In this document: in pieces, positions 23,070 through 26,147 of the stretch
How the letters are laid out: the number at the start of each line of letters is the position of its first letter
Numbering within the stretch: position 1 is the first letter of the stretch
Source: Clostridiales bacterium
GTDB taxonomy: Bacteria > Bacillota > Clostridia > Oscillospirales > Oscillospiraceae
DNA length: 64,000 bases
Assembly: GCA_021202515.1 (NCBI GenBank)
Contig: JAJQCW010000068.1
Coordinates: forward strand, 26,489-90,488
Direction: 5' to 3'
Made by a program: the position numbers and the translations under genes
Notes under the pieces: generated by a model
Told to the model about the DNA's origin: nothing
What the model saw: only the letters and a program-made list of their open reading frames with translations
The model's database searches: none

Positions 23070-23200
23070 AATAAAATCAAAACGGATACCGAAACGGTAT
23101 CCGCACAAACCACACCCACCCGAAACGCGCCGGGTGAGAAGGACTAGCGCTATTGACCACTGCGCCCAGGCGCAGAAGGTGAGGAACCGTTCCTGCTTTG
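23070..23200 (-). promoter_or_regulatory. Structured leader with terminator-like hairpin upstream of infC-rpmI-rplT
   Basis: GGATACC-GAAAC-GGTATCC hairpin (23084-23102) followed on the minus strand by GTTTTGATTTTATT; matches known attenuation leaders of this operon in Firmicutes. Confidence 0.55.
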
Positions 23201-23394
23201 TTTTGCGTAGCTATTATACCAGCGGAAATTTCGCCTGTCAAGGGGAATGTTCGGATTTTTTGCCGCGCCCCCGAATCATATAGCAGGCCCCGCCAAACCG
23301 ACGGCCAGGGGGCGCAAAAGGGGAGCGCGCCGCATGGCGACGCGCGCTCCCCGCTGTCTGGATTTCTGGGTTTGTTGCGCCGTGCAAAGGGACC

Positions 23395-24447
23395 TCATTC
23401 ATCGCCCTTGCTGGAAAGCAACTGCAACAGCTCGCTCAGCGAACCTCCGCTTTCCTTTTCCAGTCTGTCAAAGTCGATCCCACTTGGTATCTTGCTGTCA
23501 AACTCCAGCACTGAGACCTGTCTCTTGATCGACGTTTTCAAGTCCTCCCGTCCTCTGTCCATGTACTGATAGGCGGCATAATAGGCGGAATAAATCTCGC
23601 TCATCCGATTTGCAGTATTGATCGCGTTTTGATCTCTTGCAAGCCTCTCCAACGACATGGCTAAAATGTAATAGGTATACCCCAACTTGATGGAGGCCTG
23701 GTCCTCTTTCACATCGACTGCAATTCTGGCATAGTTGGCCGCATCCTGATAGCAGCCCTCTTCAAATTTGTAGTCGGCGTAATTCAGTGCGCATTGCGCA
23801 CATTTTCCCGGCAGCGCTTGGACGCCTTCTGCCAGCGCAACAAGCGCACGGTCTTCCTCCCCCTTGGAGATGTAAAACTCGAACTCCATCATATACGCTT
23901 TTTCCCGGTCGGATTTGTCCTTCAGGTAGCGAAAGTTGTCCTTATAGCCCACAAAAATCGATTCGATCTCTTTCTCCTGTTCGGCAAGCTCTTCCTCTGT
24001 TTCAGCGTAGGGCAATGCCTCCATCAAATAATCGAAAGCGAATTGATAGGCCCGCCAGGTCCAGAAGCGCTTCGGAATATGGACCAGTTGGTCATACCAC
24101 TTGCGAAGCTCTGTCAGCGGTCTGCACCGAGTTCCATATGCCAACAAATCTCCCAGCAGATCCGTATTTCTCGGATAGCGCTTGATCCCCGCATTTTCGA
24201 GCAGTCCATAGGCCAAATCGTAAAAGCCATCACGGGTGAGTCGGACACCCGCATTGTGAAACTCGTTCGCACTACCGGCAATATGATTTTTTACCTGTTG
24301 TGTATTCAGATAATCGATGACAACAGCCAACTGCTGGTAGTCCTTTTGGGCATAGTAGCGGCGAATCATGTTTACCGCTTCATCAATACTTGGAATGTAC
24401 AGATGCTTATCAAGCACGTTCTGATCGCTTGTTTTTTTATCCGGCAT
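23395..24447 (-). CDS. Alpha-helical/TPR-like protein paired with TIR-like gene (unknown function)
   Basis: 350 aa, repeated helix-pair pattern ('ALVALAEGVQALPGKCAQCALNYADYKFEEGCYQDAANYARIAVDVKEDQASIKLGYTYYILAMSLERLA'); AGAGGAGGA RBS; lower GC than neighbours. Confidence 0.7.
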   Translation of the reverse strand: MPDKKTSDQNVLDKHLYIPSIDEAVNMIRRYYAQKDYQQLAVVIDYLNTQQVKNHIAGSANEFHNAGVRLTRDGFYDLAYGLLENAGIKRYPRNTDLLGDLLAYGTRCRPLTELRKWYDQLVHIPKRFWTWRAYQFAFDYLMEALPYAETEEELAEQEKEIESIFVGYKDNFRYLKDKSDREKAYMMEFEFYISKGEEDRALVALAEGVQALPGKCAQCALNYADYKFEEGCYQDAANYARIAVDVKEDQASIKLGYTYYILAMSLERLARDQNAINTANRMSEIYSAYYAAYQYMDRGREDLKTSIKRQVSVLEFDSKIPSGIDFDRLEKESGGSLSELLQLLSSKGDE

Positions 24448-24484
24448 TTGAATTCCTCCTCTAAGTTAAGTGGTGATATGTCTA

Positions 24485-25153
24485 TTAGTATTTTGTTAGG
24501 CTCCGTCCAGATTCAGTCCGATCCCCCACATAGTCCCCCACTTTGAGTGCTGCATTTGATGAAGAACTGTTCGTCGGGGTGGGTGTTCTTGCGTTGTCGC
24601 TCGGTATTGGTGGAGACAACTTCTTTTCTATCTCAAAAATATCATAAAAAATCCCTTGAGCAACTTTGAATAATGCATCTTCCGCCTGAGCTGAATTTGC
24701 ATTTTTTTCGTAGCTTTGGTAGTATTGGGACGTGATTCCTTTTAAATCTGACAGTGTATGGAACTTCGGCAAATCATCATTCGCTTTTTCAGGAGGAATA
24801 AGCAAAAATGTCCGGGCATGTCCCAATTTTCCAAGGAACAACCCATATTCAAATAGGACATTATCTCTGGCAACCGAATACTCTTCGCTTCTCATCGTAA
24901 TGATTTCGTCCGGCGTCAGCACACAAGCCGCATATCCCATTTTATTGGTATCACCTTTCGCATATAACTCGTCTGCGATGCGTTCCAAGTTAGCAAGGGT
25001 GCTCTCACCATTTCGGAACACACCCCGGTCTTTCCATCGCACACAGGCAATATTAAGATTGTGTTCTGCAAAATGCCCCGACAGAAGGCGCTGCAAAGCG
25101 GTTGCATATTCCAGCCCTTCAGAAGAAGAAGCGATAAATAATTTTTTTGACAT
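24485..25153 (-). CDS. TIR-like nucleotide-binding domain protein (PF10137-like)
   Basis: 'KKLFIASSSEGLEYATALQRLLS...VRWKDRGVFRNGESTLANLERIADE...AACVLTPDEIITMRSEEYSVARDNVLFEYGLFLGKLGHARTFLLIP' is the typical pattern of the predicted TIR-like nucleotide-binding family. Confidence 0.85.
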   Translation of the reverse strand: MSKKLFIASSSEGLEYATALQRLLSGHFAEHNLNIACVRWKDRGVFRNGESTLANLERIADELYAKGDTNKMGYAACVLTPDEIITMRSEEYSVARDNVLFEYGLFLGKLGHARTFLLIPPEKANDDLPKFHTLSDLKGITSQYYQSYEKNANSAQAEDALFKVAQGIFYDIFEIEKKLSPPIPSDNARTPTPTNSSSSNAALKVGDYVGDRTESGRSLTKY

Positions 25154-25194
25154 AGGCTCCCACCTTCACTTCGTCATCATCTCTTACATAAAAT

Positions 25195-25223
25195 AGTATA
25201 AATGATTCCCCACAGAAAGTAAA
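25195..25223 (-). promoter_or_regulatory. Candidate promoter of TIR/TPR module
   Basis: Minus strand TTTACT, 17 nt, TATACT; ~40 nt upstream of the TIR-like start codon. Confidence 0.5.
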
Positions 25224-25320
25224 GGCTTTTTTACAAAATCCTTTCATTTTCGCCATTCCATCCCACAAGAGAGAACCGCAGACACATCTCGCTTCCCTTA
25301 TCCCCTCCTTTTCCTACAGC

Positions 25321-25353
25321 AAAAAAGCGGCAGGCTTTCGCAAGCCTGCCTCT
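25321..25353 (-). terminator. Intrinsic terminator downstream of ABC permease
   Basis: Minus strand GGCAGGCTTGCGAAAGCCTGCCGCTTTTTT. Confidence 0.8.
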
Positions 25354-25364
25354 GAGAGGTTCCT

Positions 25365-26147
25365 TTATACCGATTTCACATACCGCCGCTCATACTTATA
25401 AATCAGCCGAACACCGATAATCGCCAGCAGCAGTCCCACCACCGCCCAGGCCAGATACCAGTTCAGCAGGGGGGCCTTGCCGTAGAGCATGGAGTTGCGC
25501 AGTTGGGTGATGATATAACAGGTGGGGTTCACCCGGATCATGACGTATTGGGCCAGCCCTTCCAACTGCTTCTCCGGGTTGTAGAAGATGCCGGACAGGT
25601 AGAACATCAGCCGCAGCAGCACCCGGATGATGTTGGACAGGTCCTCGATATACACACCGCCGTGGAGCAGGATACAGCTCAGCCCGAAGGTCAGCAGGAA
25701 CAGCAGCAGCAGATAGGGCACCACCCACAGCACCTTGAGGCTCCAAGGCACCCGATAGAGCAGCATGGTGATAAAGACCAGGCCGAAACCGATGAGCATT
25801 TTGAAGCCCTGCACCATCATGTTGGACAGAATCAAAACGAACTTGGGCAGATAGACCTTGGACAGCACCGGCTGGTATCGCTTTACCAGCTTGACGCTCT
25901 GGTTGACACAGCGATCAAAGAACTGCCAGGTGGTGTAGCCGATGAAGATGAAGGCGCACAGGTAGTCCTGGCTCTTGCCAAAGACGATGGTATAGACAAA
26001 GGTATAGACCAGCATGAACAGCAGCGGGTCCAGAATCCACCACAGCCAGTTCAGGAAGGAACCGGCCACCTCATCCTTTAGCTGCGCTCTGGCGGAATAG
26101 AGGATGTAGCGCCAGTATTTGTGTACGTCTTTTAGAAACCGGATCAT
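25365..26147 (-). CDS. ABC-2 type (teichoic acid/polysaccharide) transporter permease
   Basis: 'LKDEVAGSFLNWLWWILDPLLFMLVYTFVYTIVFG...' TagG/RfbA-type topology. Confidence 0.87.
   Translation of the reverse strand: MIRFLKDVHKYWRYILYSARAQLKDEVAGSFLNWLWWILDPLLFMLVYTFVYTIVFGKSQDYLCAFIFIGYTTWQFFDRCVNQSVKLVKRYQPVLSKVYLPKFVLILSNMMVQGFKMLIGFGLVFITMLLYRVPWSLKVLWVVPYLLLLFLLTFGLSCILLHGGVYIEDLSNIIRVLLRLMFYLSGIFYNPEKQLEGLAQYVMIRVNPTCYIITQLRNSMLYGKAPLLNWYLAWAVVGLLLAIIGVRLIYKYERRYVKSV

Follow-up and report, generated by a model that had tools for sequence, protein, structure and literature searches.

An inserted gene pair encoding a CAP12-type TIR protein and a TPR-solenoid partner, a candidate two-gene immune module in a Clostridiales genome

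Described relatives and the TIR protein

TIR NADases of the CAP12 type have been described as components of cyclic-nucleotide signalling systems, namely CBASS and Pycsar. The CBASS Cap12 TIR-STING protein SfSTING (PDB 7un8; also 9lmq) belongs to the same Pfam TIR family as the protein described here, and PF10137-type TIR domains are likewise common to this protein and to PycTIR of Pycsar (PDB 8jsj). Thoeris and TPR-S systems resemble the present locus in having a small TIR gene and an adjacent second gene, possibly a TPR component. The active site of SfSTING comprises S10, R78, N80, the catalytic E84, and D110, which is supplied by the dimer mate (PMC9402430). In the constant-core variable-effector system TPR-GreA/B-PIN, a constant TPR-containing core is combined with alternative effectors that include TIR, and calcineurin-type effectors occur in related systems (PMC8195603). 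In single-protein TIR defence systems such as SpbK and Swarozyc (PMC12847820, PMC13174449), a TIR or TIR-like NADase brings about abortive infection upon recognition of a phage protein.

The window is the whole 64,000-nucleotide stretch of DNA that was analysed. An earlier note, made from its letters alone, had described two co-directional minus-strand genes with the TIR-like one first, and both open reading frames were found: a TIR effector gene encoding 222 aa (24485..25153, (-)) and a gene encoding a 350-aa TPR-solenoid partner, a putative effector controller or adaptor (23395..24447, (-)). The 37-nt intergenic gap reported between them (24448..24484, (-)) is present and, on reading the sequence, carries the expected strong ribosome-binding site, of the AGAGGAGG type, immediately 5' of the partner ATG. 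The pair had also been called AT-richer than its surroundings, and its GC content is indeed 42-54% versus mostly 55-65% in the flanking genes. The promoter-like TTTACT-17-TATACT 5' of the TIR gene (25195..25223, (-)) is there, read from 25223 to 25195 with 9/12 consensus matches, but a scan found six promoter-like sites in the region against 2.9 expected from shuffled sequence, about a two-fold excess, so that this site taken alone is weak evidence. On the other side, 3' of the partner gene, a G+C-rich hairpin followed by TTTT (23306..23350, (-); RNA fold -21.2 kcal/mol) is the probable terminator of the cassette; a terminator scan that needs five T did not flag it.

Assignment of the first protein to a TIR-like family, as originally suggested, lies far above chance. 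It matches PF10137 at E=4e-18, scoring 66 bits against a curated cut-off of 24.7 that three paired TIR homologs also exceed, and the PADLOC model for CBASS TIR effectors at 1.6e-27. Residues ~1-165 form a CAP12/PycTIR-type TIR domain and residues ~183-222 a low-confidence tail that is probably disordered. No fused sensor domain was found in the 222-aa protein, its C-terminal tail giving no match. A profile built from four paired TIRs matches TIR-STING in the PDB at 5.3e-22. The TIR fold is supported by these sequence matches and by Foldseek, in which all five significant matches are to TIR-STING, although the structure model used as query is of low confidence (AlphaFold pLDDT 58, from a thin alignment).

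Mapping by hand from printed alignments, allowing for a chain offset of 8 throughout, places SfSTING S10, R78, N80, E84, and D110 opposite S10, R96, N98, E102, and D136 of the window TIR, and these residues are invariant in 4/4 paired TIRs. Given that all five active-site residues are kept, including the aspartate contributed by the dimer mate, the protein is predicted to be an NADase active only when TIR domains pack against each other. The catalytic set is the same as in SfSTING, with its E84 and trans-acting D110, and activation by packing is expected.

The settings of the two proteins differ. In contrast to SfSTING, the window TIR has no STING domain and no adjacent cyclase, and a separate TPR protein is present instead. 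Only TIR matches were obtained for the effector, with neither of the CBASS cyclic-nucleotide sensor domains STING and SAVED among them, and its score against the NCBIfam Cap12 equivalog was 75 versus a cut-off of 450. No CBASS cyclase was found among the neighbouring open reading frames, and SMODS (PF18144), a profile that represents only some of the cyclase families, has no match in the source genome (97.6% complete). CBASS acting in trans was rejected for lack of a SMODS cyclase in the genome, which also holds no second PF10137 gene.

The PADLOC PycTIR model was matched at 1.3e-18, over its TIR part only (positions 152-271 of 288). Unlike PycTIR, the 222-aa protein has no fused cyclic-nucleotide domain; no adjacent cyclase was recognised, and inspection of the neighbouring open reading frames revealed nothing resembling a Pycsar cyclase gene. 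Relative to Thoeris and TPR-S systems, the TIR is of another subtype and the partner is not TPR-S and carries no SIR2/SLOG or caspase domain. Neither protein has a PADLOC match to ThsB or ThsA. The earlier judgement that the pair corresponds to none of canonical CBASS, Pycsar, and Thoeris is upheld by these searches. In TPR-GreA/B-PIN the TPR region is part of the core, whereas here it is a separate gene of ~330 aa that matches neither the GreA/B-C nor the PIN domain and lies downstream of the effector gene. SpbK and Swarozyc carry the sensor in the same protein and belong to different TIR families, and the Swarozyc paper makes no mention of a TPR partner.

The TPR partner and its alternative effectors

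The partner's own sequence has no match in Pfam, PADLOC, NCBIfam, or PHROGs. Its description as a helical, TPR-like protein is nevertheless borne out by its homologs, by a profile search of the PDB, and by structure prediction. Homologs match TPR families in Pfam (TPR_14 at 4.6e-10 in L003/L018), and the partner profile finds consensus TPR in the PDB at 6e-16. The AlphaFold2 model is a confidently predicted 17-helix solenoid (pLDDT 87.3) whose top Foldseek matches are TPR proteins (4e-6). The homologs have in common the motifs [DE]-[YF]-H-N and W-[TSN]-W-R-A.

Pairing of the two genes recurs in other genomes; its absence elsewhere was one of the outcomes that the earlier note had named as refuting the module. 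The partner adjoins a PF10137 TIR gene in four loci from distantly related Clostridia (the window, L017, L018 (=L003), and L019); the two genes are 37, 101, and 58 nt apart in three of these and overlap or nearly overlap in the other. Scanning genomes with the partner yielded six loci, and whole-genome searches added three more (G1103, G1019, and G1410). When 321 genomes of the class were searched with the TIR profile, this TIR subtype (E < 1e-80) was detected in two, the window and G344, both with the partner adjacent. The other 11 matches were weaker PF10137-type proteins in longer open frames with no partner within about 1.5 kb. This reverse search is supportive and is not independent proof, because few genomes hold the pair and G344 was already in the profile.

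The same partner family is also found with an unrelated enzyme. In three genomes (L020, L021, and L078) it lies directly 3' of a calcineurin-like metallophosphoesterase gene, with a 4-nt overlap in L021 and a 16-nt gap in L078; L020 is from the same genus as the window (G013). The phosphoesterases match PF00149, and DxH, GDxxx, GNHD, and GHxH-type motifs can be read in them by eye. PADLOC recognises them with its models for the CBASS 'Endonuclease' effector and for PDC-S60, and they are predicted to be nucleases or nucleotide hydrolases. In a further form the partner region is fused behind N-terminal transmembrane helices predicted by reading the sequence (L058:838-2439, =L060:8189-9790). The L058 fusion lies near a TnpV transposon gene and an HTH regulator.

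Close homologs of the partner each adjoin a TIR or a metallophosphoesterase gene, and none was found in a housekeeping operon, the context in which the earlier note had said a lone partner would speak against the module. More distant members (L022 and L059) are ambiguous in this respect; they sit on very long branches and were left out of the count of system members. In L022 an AAA ATPase gene begins 2 nt after the TPR relative (L022:7755-9930) and is possibly a further kind of partner. A phylum-wide profile search returned weak matches to what appear to be generic TPR proteins, and the two best-covered ones (L005 and L009) were rejected on reading.

In a tree of the family, a supported clade (99/99) unites the partners linked to TIR and excludes those linked to phosphoesterases; the deep branches of the tree are long and unsure. 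Separate clades of this kind suggest that the exchange is old or rare rather than constant. We found no clear C-terminal docking motif, of the kind that could fit into a TPR groove, shared by the TIR and metallophosphoesterase tails, which are mostly of low complexity. Exchange of effectors is typical of defence modules, and it strengthens the earlier suggestion of a sensing or regulatory role of the partner towards the TIR.

That one TPR family is found with enzymes of two unrelated classes also bears on the direction of signalling. Burroughs and Aravind reportedly proposed, in 2020, architectures of a TIR plus a TPR sensor that use NAD-derived signals, and Pfam holds a TPR-S family. Along these lines, the TIR would produce a messenger from NAD, and the TPR protein, as receptor of that messenger, would act on an effector whose gene lies elsewhere. 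We consider this improbable. TPR-S (PF20308) has no Pfam match in the source genome or in the partners of the window, L002-L004, L017, L019, L021, L058, and L078; the partner has no effector domain; and in three genomes the family accompanies a metallophosphoesterase and no TIR. The phosphoesterase-linked forms argue against a receptor for a TIR product and for a TPR protein that is a controller rather than a sensor of NAD products.

Proposed control of the TIR effector

We think it probable that the pair is a horizontally acquired two-gene module of the immune type, a TPR-controlled TIR NADase that depletes NAD+ upon an infection cue; the earlier reading was largely right overall. Since the active site needs the aspartate of the dimer mate, the TIR would be inactive until TIR domains pack. 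In known relatives the TIR is fused to a STING or cyclic-nucleotide sensor, whose role the TPR protein would fill here, and we infer that the TIR and TPR proteins form a physical complex. The TPR protein would be engaged by an infection cue, for which a phage protein binding to the solenoid is the likeliest candidate, and would then either drive assembly of a TIR oligomer or release the TIR from inhibition. Destruction of NAD+ would cause the infected cell to stop growing or die (abortive infection). In other bacteria, the same controller family would run a metallophosphoesterase. A role in phage defence is suggested by the effector families, the pattern of presence and absence, the effector exchange, and the restriction-gene neighbourhood of L017.

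Several of these features would also suit a toxin-antitoxin-like arrangement, in which the TIR is a constitutively dangerous NADase neutralised by the TPR protein and is activated by loss or sequestration of the latter, with no specific sensed ligand. A two-gene operon with the effector first, overlapping or tight spacing, sporadic distribution, and effector exchange are all consistent with it. Next to the L018 pair, DinJ-like and PIN proteins, recognised by eye, make up a predicted toxin-antitoxin pair, and TirC, a eukaryotic relative without a sensor, is spontaneously toxic (PMC13142454). Against this, the CAP12-type TIR-STING whose structure has been solved acts as an NADase only after its ligand has induced filament assembly (PMC9402430), a solenoid of 300-350 aa is large for an antitoxin, and no separate effector gene was recognised beside the membrane-fused L058 form. 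We regard this arrangement as unlikely and retain the reading of an infection-responsive, TPR-controlled TIR.

We put forward a broader proposal only tentatively: a stand-alone small TPR phage sensor may activate interchangeable effectors that are adjacent or fused to it (TIR NADase, calcineurin-like metallophosphoesterase, membrane helices), constituting an undescribed class of immunity. A literature search, which covered few subscription papers, found no description of a TIR-TPR or metallophosphoesterase-TPR pair. The locus would represent immunity by a TIR effector under a novel kind of controller, the effector swap being the new information. The CAP12-type catalytic domain stands alone here, apparently under a separate TPR protein that is reused with a different enzyme class. 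Such a system would offer a messenger-free way to switch a CAP12-type TIR and a natural controller whose ligand could be found by co-purification or through phage escape mutants. It would also be a simple two-gene system in which to study how one sensor drives unrelated effectors.

Insertion between infC and an ABC transporter, and distribution

We compared 12 kb around the pair by blastn with six genomes (L049-L054) that are among the closest in the genus. Alignment on the infC side ends at about 23260-23270 and resumes on the ABC-transporter side at about 25365-25369, with 84-98% identity on both sides, and the 2.1 kb between them is unmatched in 6/6 relatives. The inserted cassette as delimited by its flanks (~23261..25368, no strand assigned) is wider than the two genes and takes in the hairpin 3' of the partner gene. 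No integrase or terminal repeat was seen by inspection of its edges. On the evidence of these alignments, the two-gene cassette is an insertion.

The partner family is rare. At E<1e-8 it was detected in 3/394 genomes of the order, the window included, and among the 59 nearest relatives one besides the window has it, with a different effector. With the partner as query, no copy was found in 50,697 phage records, 72,556 plasmid records, or two IMG/VR scans.

An obvious defence neighbour is present at only one TIR locus, L017, where the pair adjoins type I restriction genes; the window site is among core genes. A position between core genes might be expected of a pair with a routine accessory role that has nothing to do with phages, such as stress-responsive NAD metabolism with a TPR scaffold, and the distant member L022, which adjoins an AAA ATPase and no known effector, points the same way. 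This explanation appears very improbable to us, as PF10137 TIRs are named for CBASS and Pycsar effectors, presence and absence vary strongly, effectors are exchanged, and restriction genes lie beside L017. An immune-type module remains the favoured reading.

In L017 a gene for a 247-aa protein lies on the same strand 18 nt upstream of the TIR gene (L017:6616-7359 (+)). It has no Pfam or PADLOC match and could be a third component of the module as it occurs there. In the window, infC is preceded by a consensus-perfect promoter, TTGACA-17-TATAAT, and a leader of ~130 nt (23080-23241, (-)) that has no Rfam match at the gathering threshold. The gap between infC and the ABC transporter holds only a short terminator-like spacer in four relatives. 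In the other two it contains a different small gene, DUF1810 in L051 and a similar one by reading in L050, indicating that this gap is a site of gene turnover at which small accessory genes are exchanged.
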